Assembly (NCBI GenBank): GCA_013388755.1
Contig: JACAEQ010000125.1
Span: 1-60,584 of the forward strand
Direction: 5' to 3'
Origin: Chloroflexota bacterium
Lineage (GTDB): Bacteria; Chloroflexota; Chloroflexia; Chloroflexales; Roseiflexaceae
DNA length: 60,584 nt
Shown: in pieces, positions 1,876 through 12,126 of the stretch
How positions within the stretch are numbered: the stretch's first letter is position 1
Layout of the letters: the number at the start of each line of letters is the position of its first letter
The notes under the pieces: generated by a model
Told to the model about the DNA's origin: nothing
The model's database searches: none
Seen by the model: the letters and a program-made list of their open reading frames with translations, nothing else
Program-made: the position numbers and the translations under genes

Positions 1876-1904
1876 TTGACAACCCCTTCCAGGGGCATTA
1901 TTAT
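1876..1904 (+). promoter_or_regulatory. Sigma-70-type promoter of the arg/car cluster
   Basis: TTGACA (1876-1881), a 17-bp spacer and TATTAT (1899-1904) form a nearly perfect housekeeping promoter. Transcription would begin near 1911, just ahead of the Arg-rich leader frame and about 190 bases before argC. This leaves a long leader holding the attenuator described separately. Confidence 0.75.
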
Positions 1905-1923
1905 TAGCGGCGCTATGGAACAC

Positions 1924-1995
1924 ATGCCTGCCAACCTGTGCACACTGCGCCGTATCCGTCGTCGTCCGGGCCGTCAGGGTCCGGAGGGCAGCTAG
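1924..1995 (+). CDS. Arginine-rich leader peptide (putative ArgL)
   Basis: A 23-codon frame with ATG at 1924; an in-frame ATG at 1915 is an alternative start. It lies just downstream of the promoter and upstream of argC. It encodes six arginines in nine codons (RRIRRRPGR, codons 9-17), using CGC and CGT. A cluster of codons for the pathway's end product, in a tiny frame between a strong promoter and an intrinsic terminator, is the hallmark of ribosome-mediated attenuation (known for his, trp, leu and thr leaders). Shine-Dalgarno complementarity is weak (GGA). No other function for the peptide is suggested. Start choice and translation are inferred, not shown. Confidence 0.65.
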   Translation: MPANLCTLRRIRRRPGRQGPEGS

Positions 1996-2087
1996 CGTGC
2001 GCGCAAAACAGGATGTGGGTCGCCAATCAAGCGCAAACGTGATGATGAACCCTTCGGATGCCGACAGTGTCCGAAGGGCTTTTCTTT
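1965..2087 (+). promoter_or_regulatory. Leader-peptide attenuator with alternative RNA pairings
   Basis: Three mutually exclusive helices can be drawn. Segment 1 (1965-1969) pairs with segment 2 (1981-1985). Segment 2, extended to 1980-1988, can instead pair with segment 3 (2050-2058) over nine positions including one G-U. Segment 3 otherwise pairs perfectly with segment 4 (2070-2078) to make the terminator. A ribosome stalled on the Arg codons (1948-1974) would cover segment 1, free segment 2 for segment 3 and so prevent termination. With ample Arg-tRNA the terminator would form. This is the classical attenuation geometry, deduced by hand pairing. Confidence 0.6.
2050..2087 (+). terminator. 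Intrinsic terminator in the argC leader
   Basis: A 9-bp perfect stem (2050-2058 with 2070-2078), an 11-nt loop and a T-rich tail CTTTTCTTT (2079-2087). It ends only 10 bases before the argC ATG, so it must be conditional rather than the end of an upstream gene. Confidence 0.75.
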
Positions 2088-2097
2088 GGGGGGCGGC

Positions 2098-3108
2098 ATG
2101 ATCAGGGTTGGTATCTTCGGTGCGACCGGCTATGCCGGGTATGAGTTGTTGCGCTGGCTGCAACGCCACCCGCAGGCGCGCGTCGTCTTCACGACATCCG
2201 AGTCGTCAGCAGGTAAGACGCTGGCCGACGTCATTCCCGGTCCGCTCGATGCGCCGTTGATCGCACCTGACGATGCGCCGCTCGGCGATGTTGATGTGGT
2301 GTTTCTGGCGTTGCCCCACGGTGTCGCCGCGCAGATGGCGCGCCGCGCACGGGGGGCCGGCGTGCGGGTCATTGATTTCTCCGCCGATTTTCGCCTGGCC
2401 ACGCCGGAGGCGTACCGCCGCTGGTATGGGCACGAGCACCCGGCGCCGGAACTGCTGCCCGCACCGTATGGCCTGCCGGAATTATACCGCGCGCTGCTGC
2501 GCGATGCACCGCTGATCGCCAACCCCGGCTGCTATCCCACCGGTGCGCTGCTGGGTGTCGCGCCGCTGCTGATGGCCGGAGCGTTGACCGACCCGCTGAT
2601 CATTATTGACGCAAAGTCGGGGGTGTCGGGCGCGGGGCGCGTGCCGAAGCAGAATACGCACTTTGTCGAGGTGAACGAAAGCCTGGCGCCCTACAGTATC
2701 GGCCAGGTGCACCGCCACGTCGGCGAGATGATGCAGGAGGCGCACCGCATCGCGCGCGGCGTGACTCCCGAGATCGTGTTTACGCCACAGTTGCTGCCGG
2801 TAAGTCGCGGCATTCTGAGTACGATCTATCTGCGTGTTCCCGAAACGTGGAGCGAGACACAGGCGCGCGCGGTCTATACTGCGCAATACGCCGGGGAGCC
2901 GTTCGTGCGGGTGTTGCCTGCCGGTCAACTGGCGACGCTGGCACACACAACGGGGACCAACGTCTGTGCCATCTCGGTGACCCTGGCGCGCCCCGGCCTG
3001 CTGATTGTTATCTCTAGCGAAGACAATATGGTCAAGGGCGCCGCCGGCCAGGCGATCCAGAATATGAATGTGATGTTCGGCCTGGCAGAAACCCTTGGTC
3101 TTCTTTGA
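2098..3108 (+). CDS. argC: N-acetyl-gamma-glutamyl-phosphate reductase
   Basis: It reduces N-acetylglutamyl phosphate to the semialdehyde with NADPH, the third step of arginine synthesis. The protein is 336 residues long, normal for ArgC. The N-terminal dinucleotide fold begins MIRVGIFGATGYAG. The catalytic cysteine lies in NPGCYPTG (Cys145), and the conserved histidine motif HRH is at about 205-207. The ATG at 2098 is chosen over a TTG four codons earlier because the family starts at this point. It is the first structural gene after the leader attenuator and the first gene of the arg/car cluster. Confidence 0.97.
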   Translation: MIRVGIFGATGYAGYELLRWLQRHPQARVVFTTSESSAGKTLADVIPGPLDAPLIAPDDAPLGDVDVVFLALPHGVAAQMARRARGAGVRVIDFSADFRLATPEAYRRWYGHEHPAPELLPAPYGLPELYRALLRDAPLIANPGCYPTGALLGVAPLLMAGALTDPLIIIDAKSGVSGAGRVPKQNTHFVEVNESLAPYSIGQVHRHVGEMMQEAHRIARGVTPEIVFTPQLLPVSRGILSTIYLRVPETWSETQARAVYTAQYAGEPFVRVLPAGQLATLAHTTGTNVCAISVTLARPGLLIVISSEDNMVKGAAGQAIQNMNVMFGLAETLGLL

Positions 3109-3189: not shown

Positions 3190-3975
3190 ATGGTACATTC
3201 AACATACAGCACGCAACGCTCAACGCTGGTGCTCAAGATCGGCGGCAACGAGCTGGATGAGCCGGCCTTTGTTGCAGAACTTGCCCGCCAGGTCGCAGGG
3301 ATGCGCCCTGTGCCGGTGCTGGTCCATGGCGGCGGCAAAGAGATCGGTATCGTGCAGGAGGCACTGGGCGGCACGCCGCGTTTCGTTGCCGGCCTGCGCT
3401 ACACCGACGCCACCGCGCTCACCGCGGCGGAGATGGTGCTCTGCGGCAGTGTCAGTACCCGCCTGGTGGCGGCACTCCTGGCCGCCGGCGCCGATGCGAT
3501 CGGGCTCTCCGGCGTTGACCGCGGGCTGATCCGGGTGGTGAAACAGGAACATCCGGCCGGCGATCTGGGGCGGGTGGGCCGGCCCACCACGGTACGCAGC
3601 GATGTGTTGCACGAGTTGCTCGCACGCAACATCATACCGGTCATTGCGCCGATCTCACTTGGGCCGGATGGACCGTACAATGTGAATGCCGATGAGGCCG
3701 CCGGCGCGGTGGCTGCCGCACTTGAGTGCGATGAGGTCGTGTTTGTAACAAACGTGCCCGGCGTCCTGGTCGCCGGCGATGTGGCGCCTGCCCTTACCCG
3801 TGACGACGTCGAGCGCCTGATCGCCGATGGCGTGATTAGCGGCGGAATGATCCCCAAAGTGCGCGCGGCGCTCGTTGCGCTCGACGCTGGCGTGCGCGCG
3901 GCGCGAATTACCAGTATGGCAGGGCTGGCCCATGGTGGAACGACGATCGTAACTGAAAGGACCATGAACGAATGA
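3190..3975 (+). CDS. argB: N-acetylglutamate kinase
   Basis: It phosphorylates N-acetylglutamate, usually the feedback-controlled step of arginine synthesis. The 261 residues show the amino-acid-kinase fold: LVLKIGGNELDE at the N-terminus, VHGGGKEI in the substrate loop, and NVNADEAAGAVA and GGMIPKVRAAL in the C-terminal half. The ATG at 3190, preceded by AGGCGGA, fits the family start. An in-frame GTG directly after the argC stop would add 27 unrelated residues. Its last four bases overlap the next gene (ATGA), which indicates translational coupling. Confidence 0.95.
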   Translation: MVHSTYSTQRSTLVLKIGGNELDEPAFVAELARQVAGMRPVPVLVHGGGKEIGIVQEALGGTPRFVAGLRYTDATALTAAEMVLCGSVSTRLVAALLAAGADAIGLSGVDRGLIRVVKQEHPAGDLGRVGRPTTVRSDVLHELLARNIIPVIAPISLGPDGPYNVNADEAAGAVAAALECDEVVFVTNVPGVLVAGDVAPALTRDDVERLIADGVISGGMIPKVRAALVALDAGVRAARITSMAGLAHGGTTIVTERTMNE

Positions 3976-4487
3976 CCGTGCACGTCCGCGAGTCGCAGGT
4001 GTTTGTCGTGCCGCCGCGAGCGGCGGAGATCATTGTCCGGCGCGCCGAAGAGGAGGACGTTGAGGCGATCGTCGCGATTGTCGCCGAAAACGCACGCCAG
4101 GGGCATCTGTTGCCGCGCAGCGCCGAGAATATACGCGCCACCCTGCCGACCTGGCTGGTCGCCGAAGTGGATGGCGCGCCTGCCGGCATCGGTTCGCTGG
4201 TGCAGATGAACCCGACGCTGGTCGAGTTACGGTCGCTCGCCGTCCTTCCGGCGTATCGCGGCTTGCGCGTCGGCCAGGCGCTGGTGCGCAGTCTGGTGGA
4301 CGAGGCGCATCGCCAGGGATTCAAGAAAATCTTTGCGTTGACTCGCGCTGTTCCGTTCTTCGTAAAACTGGGCTTTCGCATCACATCCAAAGACGATTTC
4401 CCTGATAAAGTATGGCGCGATTGTACAATCTGCCCGCTCCAGCACGCATGCGATGAGACGGCAGTGGTGATTGAGTTTGAGCGTTGA
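3972..4487 (+). CDS. argA: Short ArgA-type N-acetylglutamate synthase (GNAT)
   Basis: A 171-residue GNAT acetyltransferase, start-overlapping argB by four bases. The acetyl-CoA loop is [14 protein letters not shown]. The C-terminal half carries PFFVKLGFR and a Cys-rich tail ([10 protein letters not shown]) like that of short bacterial N-acetylglutamate synthases, which lack the kinase-like domain of E. coli ArgA. Its place between argB and carA makes acetyl-CoA plus glutamate to N-acetylglutamate the likely reaction. Because argJ can recycle the acetyl group, this enzyme may be anaplerotic. A generic GNAT is the alternative. The stop codon is the first TGA of the downstream GAACGTGG-type repeat. 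Confidence 0.8.
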
Positions 4488-4549
4488 ACGTGGAACGTGG
4501 GAACGTGGGAACGTGGAATGTGGGAACGTGGAATGTGGGAAGCTGGGAC
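4485..4549 (+). repeat. GGAACGTG-type low-complexity repeat
   Basis: About seven imperfect 8-10-bp units (GAACGTGG, GAATGTGG) fill the whole argA-carA spacer. They begin in the argA stop codon and end at the carA ATG, so the carA ribosome-binding region is made from repeat sequence. Related tracts lie at 28286, 44534 and 58623. Confidence 0.85.
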
Positions 4550-5692
4550 ATGATGAAGAAGGTGCGCGCACTGCTCGCGCTGGAAGATGGCACGATCTGG
4601 CCCGGGTATGCGCTGGGGGCGATTGGCGAACGCGCCGGCGAAGTGGTGTTCAATACATCCATGACAGGCTACCAGGAGGTGTTGACCGACCCCTCCTACT
4701 ACGGCCAGATCGTGGTGATGACCGCGCCGCATATTGGCAATACCGGCGTCAACATCGAGGATGACGAGAGCCGCCGGGCGTGGGTCTCTGGGTTCGTGGT
4801 GCGCTCCGTCAGCCCGCGTGCGTCAAACTGGCGCGCAACGCAGCCCCTCGCCGAGTACCTAGCCAGCAACGGCATCGTCGCGATCACCGGGGTTGATACG
4901 CGGGCGCTGGTGCGCCACATCCGGTCGCAGGGCGCCATGCGCGCCGTGCTTTCATCGCACGATCCGGAACCGCAGCGCATGATCGCGGCGGCGCGGGCCG
5001 CGCCGTCAATGCAGGGCCTTGACCTGGTGCCGCACGTGACCTGCGCCGAACCATACCACTGGGTCGAGGGGAGCCCTGCCGGCTGGGGGCATGGTGAAAC
5101 GGCTGCACAACAGGGGCAGGCGACGTATCACGTTGTGGCGTACGATTTTGGCATCAAGCGCAACATTTTGCGCCTGCTGGCCGAGCAAGGGTGCCGTATC
5201 ACCGTCGTGCCGGCGACCACTCCCGCCGCTGATGTGCTGGCGCTGCACCCAGACGGCGTCTTTCTCTCGAATGGCCCCGGCGATCCGGCAGCCGTCACCT
5301 ACGGTATCCAGGCAGTGCGCGACCTGCTCGGCAAAACGCCGATCTTCGGCATCTGCCTCGGCCACCAGATTCTCGGGCTTGCGCTGGGCGGAACAACCTA
5401 CAAGCTGCATTTTGGCCATCGCGGGAGCAACCAGCCGGTGCGCTCCAGCGATACCATGCATGTTGAGATTTCGAGCCATAATCATGGGTTTGCGGTTGAT
5501 GCGGCTTCGTTGCCGGAGGGCGTCGAGGTGACGCATAGCAACTTGAATGATGGCTGTGTCGAGGGACTACGGGTGCGCGACCTGCGCGCCTTCGGCGTAC
5601 AATACCATCCCGAGGCGGCCCCGGGGCCACACGATGCCCGCTACCTGTTCCGCCAGTTCGTTGAACTGATGGCCCGGTCACGCCCAGCATAA
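4550..5692 (+). CDS. carA: Carbamoyl-phosphate synthase small subunit
   Basis: The glutamine-hydrolysing subunit (380 residues) delivers ammonia to CarB for carbamoyl phosphate, feeding arginine and pyrimidine synthesis. The N-terminal CPSase domain starts [15 protein letters not shown]. The class I amidotransferase domain has the nucleophile Cys269 in [10 protein letters not shown] and the His353/Glu355 pair in YHPEA. The start at 4550 (or 4553) follows family length. An upstream in-frame ATG would add 22 residues translated from the repeat tract. Only two bases separate its stop from the next gene. Confidence 0.96.
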
Positions 5693-5694
5693 CC

Positions 5695-6180
5695 ATGGAG
5701 AACGCCTTGTCCACCTACGATCGATTGCGGCCACTCTATACGCGCCAGCCGGAAGAACGCGTGCGGCTGATGTGCGCCGAACTGGCGACACCGCTCGCTG
5801 CCGCTCATACAGCCATTGCGCAGTTGCTCCGGTTCGATCGGGCACAGGCGCTGTCGCTGCTGGGCGGGCACTTTGGTGAACTCACCGAGATCCTGCGTGA
5901 CTCGATTGTTCAGCTCGAACAACTGATCGCCGATGGGCCGGCGCTCTGCGAGCGTGCCCGCGCCAACGGCGGCCTGAGCGACCAGGAATTGCACGTCTAC
6001 CGGCACGATATCATGACGCCGCTCGGTAACGTCCGTAGCGTGGCGCGCCTGCTGGGTCGCACCGGCACCGATGGCATACCACCCGACATTGCAGCATCCA
6101 CGCGCAATCTCGACGAGGCCGCGCGCGAACTGCTCGATATTATTGATGCCCTGACGGCCTGGCAGGAACGCGCAGGCTAG
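5695..6180 (+). CDS. Stand-alone HisKA/DHp-like protein between carA and carB
   Basis: A 161-residue, all-helical, soluble protein. Residues about 100-155 (YRHDIMTPLGNVRSVARLL...) resemble the dimerisation/phosphoacceptor helix pair of histidine kinases, including an H-box-like HD..TPL. Residues about 25-60 (ELATPLAAAHTAIAQLL) look like a second, degenerate copy without the His. There is no HATPase domain, sensor or membrane segment. It starts two bases after carA and ends 24 bases before carB, so it must be co-expressed with the synthase subunits. It may be a phosphotransfer module or a scaffold. The function is unknown, and similarity to HisKA is from motif reading only. Confidence 0.7.
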   Translation: MENALSTYDRLRPLYTRQPEERVRLMCAELATPLAAAHTAIAQLLRFDRAQALSLLGGHFGELTEILRDSIVQLEQLIADGPALCERARANGGLSDQELHVYRHDIMTPLGNVRSVARLLGRTGTDGIPPDIAASTRNLDEAARELLDIIDALTAWQERAG

Positions 6181-6204: not shown

Positions 6205-9200
6205 ATGCCGCGACGAACTGACATTCGCAGCATTCTGGTGATTGGTTCCGGCCCGATTGTCATCGGCCAGGCGTGCGAGTTCGACTATGCCGGTGTTCAG
6301 GCGTGCAAGGTGTTGCGCCGCGAAGGGTTCCGCATCGTGCTGGTCAACTCCAACCCGGCAACGATCATGACCGACCCGCAGATGGCCGACGCAACCTACA
6401 TCGAACCGCTGACACCCGAGATTGTTGAGAAGATTATCGAGCAGGAAAAACCTGACGCGCTCCTGCCGACCGTCGGCGGCCAGACCGGGTTGAACCTGGC
6501 GATGAAACTGGCTGAGAGCGGCATACTCGAGCGACACGGCGTCCGGTTGATCGGCGCCTCGCCGCGCGCAATTGCCCTGGCCGAGGATCGCGAACTCTTC
6601 AAGCAGGCCATGCTCGACGCTGGCCTGGGGGTGCCGCTTGGCGAGACTGTGACGACGGTCGAGCGGGCGCTTGAGGTGGCGGCGCGCATCGGGTACCCGG
6701 TACTGGTGCGCCCCTCGTTTACCCTCGGCGGTAGCGGCGGTGGCGTGGCCCACAACGAAACACAATTGCGCGATGTCGCCGACCGTGGCCTGCGCGCATC
6801 GCCGGTGACCCAGGTGCTGATCGAGCAGTCGGTGATCGGCTGGAAGGAGTACGAACTTGAGGTCATGCGCGATCGCGCCGATAACTTCGTCGTCGTCTGT
6901 TCGATCGAGAACCTTGACCCGATGGGCGTCCATACCGGCGACTCGATCACCGTTGCGCCGGCGATGACGCTCACCGACCGCGAGTTGCAGCGGCTGCGTG
7001 AAATGGCGAAGGTCGTCATTCGCACGATTGGCGTTGAGACCGGCGGATCGAACATTCAGTTTGCCGTCGATCCGCGTACCGGCACGCCGCTGGTGATCGA
7101 GATGAACCCGCGCGTCAGCCGCTCGTCGGCGCTGGCATCCAAGGCCACCGGTTTCCCGATCGCCAAAATCGCGGCCCTGCTGGCTGTGGGGTATACACTC
7201 GACGAGATCCCCAACGATATTACCAGGGTCACGCCGGCTTCGTTCGAACCGAGCCTCGATTATGTGGTGGTGAAGGTTCCGCGCTGGGCGTTCGAGAAGT
7301 TCCCCGGCGTCGATCCAACCCTCGGCCCGCAGATGAAGAGTGTGGGCGAGGTGATGGCAATCGGTACGACATTCAATGAGGCTTTGCAGAAGGCGCTGCG
7401 CGGCCTCGAAATCGGCGCCATCGGGTTTGGTGCCTTCGCCGGCCAGCGCCGTGCGGGGCTCGAACCGATCGAACCCGCCGACGATGACCTGCGCATCCCG
7501 ACAGCACGGCGTATCTTCCATGTCGCTGATGCATTGCGCGCCGGCTGGGACATCGAACGAATCAGCGCCCTCACCGGCTATGATCCCTGGTTCGTGGCAC
7601 AGATGCGCCAGATCATTGATGTTGAAGCCGCACTGGCACAGCATACGCTCGATACGATTCCGCCCGATCTGCTGCGTGAAGCCAAGGAACATGGCTTCTC
7701 CGACGCTCACATCGCAAGCGTGCTGCACACGGCAGGAGACGGCGAAAAGGGAACCGGCAGCGGCGACTCCGCCGTTCACCCTCCATCGCCCGCCCCCCGG
7801 CCACCATCCGACATGGACGTGCGCGCGCGGCGTAAAGCGCTCGGCATTCTACCGGTGTATCACCGCATTGATACCTGCGCCGCCGAGTTCGAGGCGCATA
7901 CGCCCTACCTCTACAGTACCTATGCCTCAGCCGACGAGTCCGACGTGACCGATCGGCCGAAAGCGATCATCCTCGGCGGTGGTCCAAACCGCATCGGCCA
8001 GGGCATCGAGTTTGACTACTGCTGCGTCCATGCCAGCTTCGCCCTGCGCGACCTCGGCTACGAGACGATCATGATCAACTGCAACCCCGAAACCGTCTCG
8101 ACCGATTACGATACCAGCGATCGGCTCTATTTTGAACCCCTTACGCTGGAAGATGTACTGAACATCTGGGAGAACGAGTCTGGCCTGGCAGGACAGGGAG
8201 ACAGGGAGATAAGGAGACACGGAGACACGAATGTCGCTGCCCTCTCCCTTTCTCCCATTCCATTCTTCTCCTCTTCTCCCGTGCCGATGCTGGTGCAATT
8301 CGGCGGCCAGACGCCGCTGAACCTGGCAAAAGGGCTGGTGGCAGCCGGTGTGCCGATCTGGGGAACGTCGCAGGACGCCATTGACCTGGCGGAGGATCGC
8401 GGCCGCTTCAGCGAGTTGTTGCAGCGTCTCGACATCATGCAACCAGAGAGCGGCATGGCTGCCGACCTGCAGGGCGCGCGGCGGGTGGCGCAGCGGATCG
8501 GGTACCCCGTACTGGTGCGGCCAAGTTACGTTCTCGGCGGGCGCGCCATGGCGATTGCCTATGACGATGAAGGCCTGGCGCAATACATTCACGAAGCGGC
8601 GCAGATCAGCGCCGGCCAGCCGGTCTTGATCGACCGCTACCTGGAGGATGCGTTCGAGATTGATGTTGATGCCGTCGGGGATGGCGAGCGGCTGGTGATC
8701 GGCGGCATCATGGAACATGTCGAAGAAGCCGGTGTCCACTCCGGCGACTCGGCGATGGTGATGCCGCCCTACAAGGTCAGCGCCTACCATCTGTCGATCA
8801 TCCGCGATGAAGCCGTGCGCATCGGCCTGGCGCTGGGTGTCAAAGGATTGATGAACATCCAGTTTGCGCTGAAGGACGATGAAGTATATGTCCTGGAAGT
8901 CAACCCGCGTTCGTCACGCACGGTGCCGTTCGTCGCCAAGGCGACCGGTGTGCCGCTGGCGCGGATTGCCGCCCAGGTGGCCGCCGGCAAGAAACTGGCC
9001 GATCTGGGATTCACCCAGGAGCCGCCGCTCGATGGCTTCTTCGTAAAAGAGGCCGTGCTGCCGTTCGACAAGTTTCCCGGCGCGGCGGTGGTGCTCAGCC
9101 CGGAGATGCGATCCACCGGCGAGGTCATGGGCCACGCCTCGACCTTCGGCCATGCGTTCGCCAAGGCTGAACTGGGCGCCAACCAGCGTATTCCGACCGG

Positions 9201-9606
9201 TGGCGGCGCACTCCTGACCGTCAATGACTACGACAAGGGCGCAATCGGGCGGATCGCGCGCGACCTGGCGAAACTTGGCTTCACCCTGTACGCCACACGC
9301 GGCACAGCCGCCTGGCTGCACCAGCTCGGCCTGGCCGCCGAGGTGGTCAACAAAGTCTCCGAAGGGTCGCCGCACACGGTTGACCTGCTGGCTTCGGGCA
9401 AGGTCGGCCTGGTGATCAGTACGCCACTCGGCTCGCGCGCCTACGCCGATGGCCAGGCACTGCGCTCGGCGGCCATCCGCTATGGCGTGGTGCTGGTGAC
9501 GACCCTCACCGGCGCTGCGGCAACCGTCAGCGCCATTCGTGCGCTCCGCCAGAAGGCGCTGCGCGTCCGATCGCTCCAGGAGCATCACCGCAACCGTCAG
9601 CACTGA
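6205..9606 (+). CDS. carB: Carbamoyl-phosphate synthase large subunit
   Basis: It makes carbamoyl phosphate from bicarbonate, ammonia and two ATP. At 1133 residues it is longer than the usual 1070. Two homologous ATP-grasp halves are clear (N-half [18 protein letters not shown]-half [18 protein letters not shown]). They are followed by the C-terminal MGS-like allosteric domain (about 980-1110). Excess length sits in two places. One is a Gly/Ser/Pro-rich linker between the halves at about residues 510-535. The other is a 33-residue insertion at about 660-692, just before [12 protein letters not shown], encoded by a palindromic low-complexity repeat. The insertion preserves the frame, so the gene is probably functional. 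Confidence 0.96.
8182..8280 (+). repeat. Palindromic low-complexity insertion inside carB
   Basis: A purine-rich arm with GGGAGACAGGGAGA (8196-8209) and a pyrimidine-rich arm with TCTCCCTTTCTCCC (8243-8256) are inverted copies matching at 13 of 14 positions. The block is about 99 bp, a multiple of three, and interrupts an otherwise conserved part of carB without a frameshift. Confidence 0.75.
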
Positions 9607-9671: not shown

Positions 9672-10880
9672 ATGAGCGCCAAAGTCAGCAAAGTGGTCCT
9701 GGCCTACTCCGGAGGGCTCGACACATCCATCATCGTTCCCTGGCTGAAACAGAACTACGGCAACCCGGAAGTCATCTGTTACTGCGCCCATATCGGCCAG
9801 GACGATGAGCTCGGCGGGCTCGAGGAGAAAGCGATCGCGACCGGTGCATCGAAGTGCTATGTCGAAGATCTGCGCGAAGAGTTCGTGCGCGACTTCCTCT
9901 TCCCTTTGCTGCAATCCGGCGCCGTGTATGAACGGACCTACCTGCTCGGCACGTCGGTCGCGCGCCCGCTGATTGCGCGCCGCCAGGTTGAAATTGCGGC
10001 GATGGAAGGCGCCGATGCCGTGGCGCATGGCTGCACCGGCAAAGGGAACGACCAGGTGCGCTTCGAGTTGACCTATATGGCGTTCAATCCGCACCTGAAA
10101 GTGATCGCGCCCTGGCGCGAGTGGAACATCCGCAGCCGGGAGGACGCGCTCGACTATGCCGCCGAATACAATGTGCCGGTCAGCGCAACCCTCAAGTCGA
10201 TTTATAGCCGCGACCGCAACATCTGGCACATGTCGCATGAAGGAGGCCTCCTGGAGGATCCCTGGAACGAGCCTGAGGAGCCGATGTACACGCTGACAAC
10301 CTCGCCTGAGGCCGCGCCGGACGAACCAGAATATGTGACGATTGGCTTCGAGCAGGGGGTACCGGTGAGTGTGGACGGCGAGCGCCTCGGCCCGGTGGCA
10401 TTGCTCCTTGCGCTGAACGAGCGCGGCGCAAAACATGGCATTGGCCGTGTTGACCTGGTGGAGAATCGCCTGGTCGGCATGAAGAGCCATGGCGTCTACG
10501 AGACCCCCGGGGGGACGATCCTGCGCGTGGCGCACCAGGGGCTGGAGCAGTTGACACTCGACCGAGACACGCTGCATTACAAAGATGTTGTGGCCCACCG
10601 GTACGCCGAGCTGGTCTACTATGGGCAATGGTACACTCCGCTACGTGAGGCGCTCGACGCGTTTGTGCGCGTCACCCAGCAGAATGTGACCGGCGAGGCG
10701 CGCCTGAAGCTTTACAAAGGAAATGCCACCCTGGTGGGCCGGCGCGCGGCCAGGAGCCTCTATAATCTCGACATTGCCAGCTTCACCATGAGCGCCAGCT
10801 ACGATCAGAAGGACGCCGAGGGTTTCATCAAGATCTTTGGCCTGCCGATGAAGGTTCACGCGCTGGTTGAGGGGAAGTAG
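9672..10880 (+). CDS. argG: Argininosuccinate synthase
   Basis: It joins citrulline and aspartate using ATP, the penultimate step of arginine synthesis. It has 402 residues, the normal length. The PP-loop motif AYSGGLDTS is at residues 10-18. The citrulline/aspartate-binding signatures [14 protein letters not shown] and [16 protein letters not shown] are intact. The ATG at 9672 has a GAGGAA ribosome site; a GTG four codons earlier is less likely. It lies 65 bases after carB and 16 bases before argJ in the same transcription direction. Confidence 0.97.
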
Positions 10881-10896: not shown

Positions 10897-12126
10897 ATGG
10901 ATGCCATCGTGGAGGATTTTGCCCTGGCGGAGGGGTTCGTCGCGACGGCCACGGCCTGCGGGCTGAAGCCGGCCGGAGCGCTCGACATGGCACTCATCGT
11001 CGCCGAAGAGCCTTGCAGCGCGGCAGGCCTCTTCACTACCAACCGGGTCAGGGCGGCGCCGGTGCTCTACGACCAGCAGGTGCTGGCGCGCAACCCCGCC
11101 GCCGTGCGCGCGGTCGTCATCAATGCCGGCAATGCCAACGCCTGTACCGGCCCGCAGGGCGCAGCAAACTGCCACGCCATGGCCGCCATGACCGCGGAAC
11201 GCCTCGGCTGTCGTCCCGACCAGGTGCTGGTGCTCTCCACCGGCGTCATCGGCCGTCAACTCGACATGGCGAAGGTCGCGCGCGGCATTGGCGCATTGAC
11301 GACGCCGGGAGCGGCGCATGGTGCGGGGTTCGCCGCACGCGCCATCATGACCACCGATACGCGCGCGAAAGTCGCCAGGCGCACAATCTCCGCCGGCGAC
11401 ACACCGATCTCGATCGCGGGAATGTGCAAAGGCGCGGGGATGATCCATCCCAACATGGCCACCATGCTCGCCATCGTGACGACCGATGCGCGTGTGGCGC
11501 CCGATCTGCTCGACCGCGCGCTGCGCCACGCCGCCGACCGCAGCTTCAACCGCATCAGTGTTGATGGCGATACGAGTACCAACGATACGCTGCTGCTCCT
11601 GGCCTCCGGCGCATCCGGCATTGACGTGCAACCGGCAGCAGCGGCGCCGCCCCTCGACGCCGCAACCTTTACGGCGGCACTGACCGATGTGTGTATTGAC
11701 CTGGCCCGGCAGGTAGCGCGCGACGGCGAAGGGGCCACGCGCCTGGTCGAAATTACCGTCAGTGGCGCGCGCGATGACGCCCAGGCACACCAGGTGGCCA
11801 ATGCGATCGCCCGCTCACCGCTGGTCAAGACCGCCATCCACGGCGGGGATCCAAACTGGGGACGGGTGCTGTGCGCCGCCGGCTACAGTGGCGCTGAGAT
11901 CGACCCTGATCGCCTGTCGCTGCACTTTGGCGTGGCAGGATCGGCGATCCAGCTCGTTGCCGGCGGGTTGCCGCTCGAGGCCGACCTGGCTGCCGCGTCG
12001 GCGTTGCTGCGTCAGGACCCGGTGTATATCACGCTCGACCTCGGCCTGGGCACTGCCCAGACGACCGTGTGGACGTGTGATTTCAGCAAAGAATATATTG
12101 AGATCAACGCGCATTACACGACATAG
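10897..12126 (+). CDS. argJ: Glutamate N-acetyltransferase (ArgJ)
   Basis: It transfers acetyl from N-acetylornithine to glutamate, so it recycles the acetyl group. Bifunctional members also act as acetylglutamate synthase. It has 409 residues. The self-cleavage signature KGAGMIHPNMATMLA places the nucleophile at Thr189, which becomes the N-terminus of the beta chain. The ISVDGDTSTNDT motif is present. The start ATG at 10897 has GAGG upstream. Having both ArgJ and the short ArgA in one cluster suggests a cyclic pathway with a separate priming enzyme. argD, argF and argH are not in this window. Confidence 0.96.
   Translation: MDAIVEDFALAEGFVATATACGLKPAGALDMALIVAEEPCSAAGLFTTNRVRAAPVLYDQQVLARNPAAVRAVVINAGNANACTGPQGAANCHAMAAMTAERLGCRPDQVLVLSTGVIGRQLDMAKVARGIGALTTPGAAHGAGFAARAIMTTDTRAKVARRTISAGDTPISIAGMCKGAGMIHPNMATMLAIVTTDARVAPDLLDRALRHAADRSFNRISVDGDTSTNDTLLLLASGASGIDVQPAAAAPPLDAATFTAALTDVCIDLARQVARDGEGATRLVEITVSGARDDAQAHQVANAIARSPLVKTAIHGGDPNWGRVLCAAGYSGAEIDPDRLSLHFGVAGSAIQLVAGGLPLEADLAAASALLRQDPVYITLDLGLGTAQTTVWTCDFSKEYIEINAHYTT

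Follow-up and report, generated by a model that had tools for sequence, protein, structure and literature searches.

In textbooks, arginine operons serve as the standard example of genes governed by a repressor protein. How such an operon could be regulated where the repressor is missing is the question raised by a locus of a Chloroflexota bacterium (Roseiflexaceae; GCA_013388755.1, contig JACAEQ010000125.1), which we have analyzed in a window of 60,584 nucleotides, that is, the whole stretch from position 1 to 60,584 of the forward strand. ArgR was not found in this genome with the model PF01316, and the same model was positive in 9 of 14 control genomes. The window carries on one strand a cluster with the order argC-argB-GNAT-carA-x-carB-argG-argJ:

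2098..3108, + strand, argC, the first structural gene (NCBIfam TIGR01850, 372.6 bits)
3190..3975, + strand, argB, acetylglutamate kinase (TIGR00761, above cut-off)
3972..4487, + strand, GNAT N-acetyltransferase (best match NF005840, below its cut-off)
4547..5692, + strand, carA (TIGR01368)
5695..6180, + strand, 161-aa protein between carA and carB (x; no NCBIfam match)
6205..9606, + strand, carB (NF003671)
9672..10880, + strand, argG (NF001770, TIGR00032)
10900..12126, + strand, argJ (NF003802, TIGR00120)

The GNAT protein probably fills the argA role as N-acetylglutamate synthase. The carB product, of 1133 aa, has low-complexity insertions in an otherwise standard carbamoyl-phosphate synthase large subunit.

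A sequence-only reading had proposed that the DNA just before argC holds a ribosome-mediated attenuator of the trp type, and every defining feature of this type that can be looked for in a sequence was found there:

1876..1904, + strand, sigma-70-type promoter TTGACA-N17-TATTAT (same promoter-to-ATG distance in relatives)
1915..1995, + strand, predicted leader peptide gene, MEHMPANLCTLRRIRRRPGRQGPEGS and stop (frame and conserved start spacing in relatives)
1948..1974, + strand, putative regulatory Arg codons CGC CGT ATC CGT CGT CGT CCG GGC CGT (Arg retained in relatives)
1965..1972, + strand, segment 1, forming hairpin 1:2 with 1978-1985 (pairing in the window and in relatives)
1978..1988, + strand, segment 2, of which 1978-1985 pairs with segment 1 and 1980-1988 with 2050-2058 (antiterminator)
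2050..2058, + strand, segment 3, the 5' arm of the terminator (pairing, covariation)
2070..2087, + strand, segment 4 (3' arm, 2070-2078) and T-rich tail (2079-2087) (pairing, covariation)

The promoter, with TTGACA at 1876-1881 and TATTAT at 1899-1904, lies where it had been read and matches the consensus at 11 of 12 positions; shuffles of the promoter region yield 0.2 sites as good. Its spacer contains an inverted repeat, CCCCTTCCAGGGG (1883-1895), a similar one being present in one other leader (L014) and absent from most relatives. The leader frame had been taken as 23 codons starting at the ATG at 1924. The arginine cluster RRIRRRPGR (1948-1974, six Arg in nine codons) stands as described, but the frame most likely has 26 codons, from the ATG at 1915 to the stop at 1993-1995; the ATG at 1915 is the preferred start because relatives conserve the first ATG at a fixed distance from TTGACA. 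The 9-bp terminator described before argC is also there, as CCCTTCGGA-loop-TCCGAAGGG-CTTTTCTTT over 2050-2087, with a stem of 2050-2058 and 2070-2078 and a tail, CTTTTCTTT, that occupies 2079-2087 and ends ten bases 5' of the argC ATG (2098). The antiterminator was likewise borne out, since 1980-1988 and 2050-2058 form nine pairs, one of them G-U, that covary. The sequestering segment, given as five bases (1965-1969), does pair, yet it is longer, an 8-bp hairpin 1:2 between TCCGGGCC (1965-1972) and GGTCCGGA (1978-1985). In the window leader the 1:2, 2:3 and 3:4 pairings are mutually exclusive, and the protector hairpin 1:2 overlaps the end of the regulatory Arg codons, as it does in the relatives.

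A simple explanation would be that the hairpin is an ordinary terminator, serving a small RNA or a transcript from upstream, and that the Arg-rich frame arose by chance in G+C-rich DNA. Arginine richness alone is indeed only mildly unusual, arising by chance at about 0.2-0.4%: six Arg in nine codons were reached by 32 of 20,000 dinucleotide shuffles and by 3 of 722 short ATG frames of the window. A loose Arg-codon pattern was uninformative in the organism's own genome (about 950 matches against about 830 in the control). The case thus rests on conservation.

We have examined this conservation first of all in the order, where argC was detected in 82 of 82 genomes. As had been predicted, relatives keep the Arg-rich frame. 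Promoter, frame and T-tailed hairpin are found in all 23 genomes of the same family (f1) that have an assembled argC 5' end; in the sister family (f3) the same leader precedes argC in 8 of 9 genomes and argG in the ninth. Counted from the first base of TTGACA, the start codon is exactly 39 nt away in all 14 f1 leaders that do not belong to one derived genus. The f3 leaders agree in 6 of 7 cases, the seventh having 38 nt; the f1 genus g9 shows 36 nt, except for two entries where the script chose another start or -35. Arginine is preserved through CGT, CGC, CGG and CGA codons, as expected if the amino acid is what matters. A covariance model built from 26 f1 and f3 leaders was applied to 158 genomes of the class; it gave exactly one strong match (E <= 4e-16) in each of 31 genomes (f1 and f3), all before argC, and no strong match away from argC in the 158 genomes. 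Further matches outside argC, with E values from 0.003 to 0.07, turned out in the inspected cases to be chance or a duplicated gene end. No relative of the leader was found among viral contigs. Besides, most genomes of the order have a second argC-like gene (TIGR01850 above cut-off, e.g., G000:C120:93236-94270), and the copies that were read have no Arg leader.

The alternative pairings are conserved as pairings. In 14 same-family sequences the terminator had 92.7% of cells paired and six pairs changed on both sides, and the antiterminator 91.1% and three pairs; shifting the partner by one column lowered the pairing to 60-70%. A wider alignment agreed, with compensatory changes in terminator and antiterminator. 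Covariation had been anticipated in all three stems, and for hairpin 1:2 it holds only in part: the hairpin covaries across families in the wide alignment, but inside the core family, although it is well paired (90.2% of cells), there is no excess covariation. The cleanest test, exchanging segments between leaders, gave the same picture. Over 14 lineages a leader's own segments 2 and 3 paired on average at -19.1 kcal/mol, against -16.1 when exchanged, and 1 of 20,000 permutations was as good as the own pairs. With 38 leaders from many families the values were -16.4 and -12.9 kcal/mol and no permutation in 20,000 was as good, which was also the result (0 of 20,000) when the comparison was confined to the 18 leaders from outside the two core families.

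Finally, we have searched for the arrangement at argC with two detectors. The strict one (promoter, ATG 5-12 nt downstream, short frame and terminator) found it in 22 of 23 f1, 7 of 7 f3 and 5 of 20 near Anaerolineae-type regions, in 1 of 46 from other Chloroflexota, in none of the f2 (0/29) and f4 (0/4) regions, these being further families of the order, and in 1 of 69 from other phyla. The second, with a looser promoter but demanding four Arg in eight codons, found it in 9 of 20 near Anaerolineae-type regions and in none of 67 from other phyla. A chance frame before an ordinary terminator is contradicted by the exchange of segments and by the covariance-model search, and it also fits poorly with a conserved frame, synonymous changes of the Arg codons, a fixed promoter spacing, covarying alternative pairings and the near absence of the arrangement from other phyla. 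We give this explanation practically no weight.

What these data point to, with a high degree of confidence on our side, is a ribosome-mediated attenuator sensing charged tRNA-Arg and controlling the arginine operon. The anatomy, its conservation and covariation, the operon context and the absence of ArgR are what we have observed; from them we infer that the frame is translated, where transcription starts, that ribosomes stall when arginine is short and that read-through changes as a result. Transcription would start at the leader AUG or a few bases before it, with the ribosome trailing the RNA polymerase. When arginine is plentiful, the ribosome would pass the Arg codons, reach the stop codon and cover segment 2, leaving segment 3 available for the 3:4 terminator, which stops transcription ahead of argC. 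Under a shortage of charged tRNA-Arg, the ribosome would stall at CGT-CGT-CGT (codons 15-17) and cover segment 1; the released segment 2 would then pair with segment 3, blocking the terminator and allowing argC-argB-GNAT-carA-x-carB-argG-argJ to be transcribed.

We have simulated co-transcriptional folding for each leader by folding the RNA from the edge of the ribosome to the end of segment 3. In the window, the predicted pairing probability of segment 3 was 0.90-0.95 with the ribosome stalled on codons 15-17, 0.49 once it had reached the stop codon and 0.42 without a ribosome. In 35 of 38 leaders the stalled state lay above the stop-codon state by over 0.2, while the best stall state exceeded the state without ribosome by that margin in only 21 of 38. 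In several leaders the 5' arm is partly paired without a ribosome, so untranslated read-through may not be low everywhere. The pairing of segment 3 falls just past the Arg cluster, the last stalls that free segment 2 being located at the cluster. Actually, arginine makes up 37% of the nine codons ending at the last segment-2-freeing stall and 15% of the others, a statistic that is partly selected because the leaders were partly collected for their Arg richness.

The same RNA read-out could serve a different signal. An Arg-rich nascent peptide might arrest the ribosome on free arginine or another small molecule, as in the fungal AAP or SpeFL, and what is sensed would then be a metabolite together with the peptide sequence and not tRNA charging. 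In its favour, a short Arg-Arg-Pro motif does not vary among the 21 leaders of the two core families that lie outside one genus, and a leader with regulatory Arg codons is known for speF of Salmonella (PMC6386406). Against this, the families share Arg density and not sequence (RRADRRRVR, RLRRPR, RRYRRRQ, RDRRRNA, SRRSRRL, RFRRRTQ), and arrest on high arginine has the wrong sign, since stalling at this leader would prevent termination. We consider it unlikely. Still less probable is a general sensor of translation stress or antibiotics, of the erm type with an RLR motif, lying by chance before the arginine operon: some leaders do have RLR-like stretches (LRLRRPRT in f3), but the element always heads the arginine operon, being before argG when argG comes first, and has no strong model match elsewhere in the 158 genomes. 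The true arginine control could also be a T-box, another aptamer riboswitch or an ArgR operator. T-boxes are the only RNA control of arginine genes cited in a 2005 survey (PMC1262725); positions 1500-2600 of the window, however, had no Rfam match up to E = 1, and an operator is at odds with a genome without ArgR. This possibility, very unlikely in our estimate, is contradicted by the data except for some further regulator acting additionally at the promoter. We retain the attenuator responding to charged tRNA-Arg as the reading of this locus.

The position of the start codon has a consequence of its own. The leader ATG is located 10 nt past the -10 box in the window and 6-10 nt past it across the leaders compared (7 in one genus), a spacing that offers no room for a Shine-Dalgarno sequence and makes a leaderless peptide gene probable. 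With transcription starting some 7 nt past the box, an ATG at 7-10 nt would leave a 5' UTR no longer than about 4 nt; the leader peptide would thus probably be translated from a leaderless mRNA or from one with such a minimal 5' UTR, the transcription start being deduced from the promoter. The pattern TTGACA-N17-TANNNT-N7-11-ATG occurs at 13 places in the genome, including 1876-1917 of the window (L071-L083), against two for the reversed pattern; promoters a few bases 5' of an ATG are therefore over-represented, which suggests that leaderless mRNAs are common in this organism. Some of the 13 sites run directly into full-length genes (L072, L073, L077). Leaderlessness in itself is not new, given the leaderless leader-peptide attenuators of Sinorhizobium meliloti (trpL; PMC7298713) and Streptomyces lividans (leuL, trpL and ilvL; PMC8079986) and related ones in Actinobacteria (PMC1262725).

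The element is more than a local peculiarity. Outside the order, the best-matching argC relatives, from an Ardenticatena and two other Chloroflexota records (L131-L133), share the arrangement; in one of them (L133) the frame MKHFPTQLFRRYRRRQTIGLGFSVV is accompanied by a hairpin 1:2 CCAGACC-ATT-GGTCTGG and a terminator GCCAGACC...GGTCTGGC. The same arrangement was found in families f35, f47, f64, f77, f82 and f96, drawn from the phylum, so that on sequence criteria it occurs in at least eight Chloroflexota families. The position follows the gene order. Four f4 genomes, in which the operon is argG-argJ-argH-GNAT-argC, have the leader before argG and not before argC, and G042 also has a leader at argG, as do at least ten of the twenty f2 genomes inspected, the start codon being less clear in f2. 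A leader directly before argC was absent in the f2 and f4 regions read, and the f2 genomes that are probably of Chloroflexus type had none at argC or argG.

Some particular cases deserve mention. The leader before argC of G481 (L229) has an in-frame TAG at the codon that reads CAG in its sister L226, although its RNA segments and terminator look intact. In f4, f2 and Ardenticatena leaders (L131, L209, L280-L282, L285, L294-L302) the peptide often finishes with SG-stop or PG-stop, after which comes a shared stretch such as TTAGCCGTGCTTG; at the corresponding position the window carries CTAGCGTGCG. This hints that the element has a single origin throughout the phylum, and perhaps that the linker has an additional function. 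Four genomes of one f2 genus without the Arg leader (L054-L057) have a conserved 28-aa frame, MFTR(L/F)L(K/R)FLRRL(S/G)QIHPAVIAIAPDRTW, in the roughly 170 bases upstream of argC, and 5' of this frame lies a conserved stretch that appears structured and has no Rfam match.

The distribution of ArgR looks complementary. The repressor was found in 0 of 82 genomes of the order, above cut-off in 0 of 158 genomes of the class, and in 97 of 400 genomes drawn phylum-wide. It was not found in any leader-bearing genome tested, including the three of L131-L133; the families with a clear ArgR (f18, f22, f28, f29, f31, f33, f41, f43, f55, f57) do not overlap with the leader families, and no leader was detected in the seven ArgR-bearing genomes whose argC region was read, although these counts are not independent by descent. 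We lean towards the view, with reservations, that in much of Chloroflexota arginine genes were ancestrally, and are still mainly, controlled by the Arg leader attenuator, probably a leaderless one, which stays at the head of the operon while the gene order changes (argC or argG first) and was replaced or excluded by ArgR in other classes.

Comparison with known systems indicates where the novelty would lie. The trp, his, leu, thr and phe attenuators of Proteobacteria (trpL type) also have a leader frame in which end-product codons abound, the 1:2, 2:3 and 3:4 pairings and an intrinsic terminator before the first biosynthetic gene; here the amino acid is arginine, the operon an arg operon, the phylum another one, and there is no space for a Shine-Dalgarno sequence before the AUG. 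The leaders of S. meliloti, Streptomyces and Actinobacteria share the short frame at or next to the transcription start and the terminator downstream, but they serve Trp, Leu, Ilv, Ala, Met, Thr or Cys, and none in the cited papers serves arginine (PMC7298713, PMC8079986, PMC1262725). Closer in codon content is orf34/SpeFL of Salmonella speF (PMC6386406), with consecutive Arg codons at which pausing under low arginine refolds the mRNA. It differs in controlling an ornithine decarboxylase (polyamines) through RNase G sensitivity and Rho, with two regulatory Arg codons, no arginine biosynthesis target and no intrinsic terminator switch. Identity with SpeFL/orf34 was discarded, the genes downstream being arg genes, the intrinsic terminator being present and the peptide having no NCBIfam match. 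In rbfL of Staphylococcus aureus (PMC13009471) the Arg codons of a uORF also sense arginine limitation by pausing; unlike here, it is the translation initiation of a biofilm regulator that is controlled, and pausing represses. ArgR with its ARG-box serves the same pathway with the same end-product logic, but it is a protein repressor, and neither this genome nor its order or class has it above cut-off.

Leader-peptide systems were known to a 2010 survey of premature terminators only from Proteobacteria, Actinobacteria and Firmicutes, the last being new in that survey (PMC2965389). We found no description of a leader-peptide attenuator for arginine biosynthesis in the open-access literature searched, Rfam or NCBIfam, and in that literature no leader-peptide attenuator of any kind for this phylum. 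The suspicion that such an element would be unusual for Chloroflexota and perhaps undescribed agrees with this as far as description goes, but it understated a spread of at least eight families. The mechanism would be the known trp type; what looks new is the sensing of arginine for an arg operon, its occurrence in this phylum and its apparent position as a substitute for ArgR.

If confirmed, the attenuator would explain how bacteria without ArgR could regulate arginine biosynthesis. Its near-absent 5' UTR makes it a good subject for the study of leaderless translation and its coupling to transcription. Moreover, with its spread, its placement at argC or argG and its complementarity with ArgR, it becomes directly testable in this phylum whether a protein repressor took over from an RNA switch or the RNA switch from the repressor.
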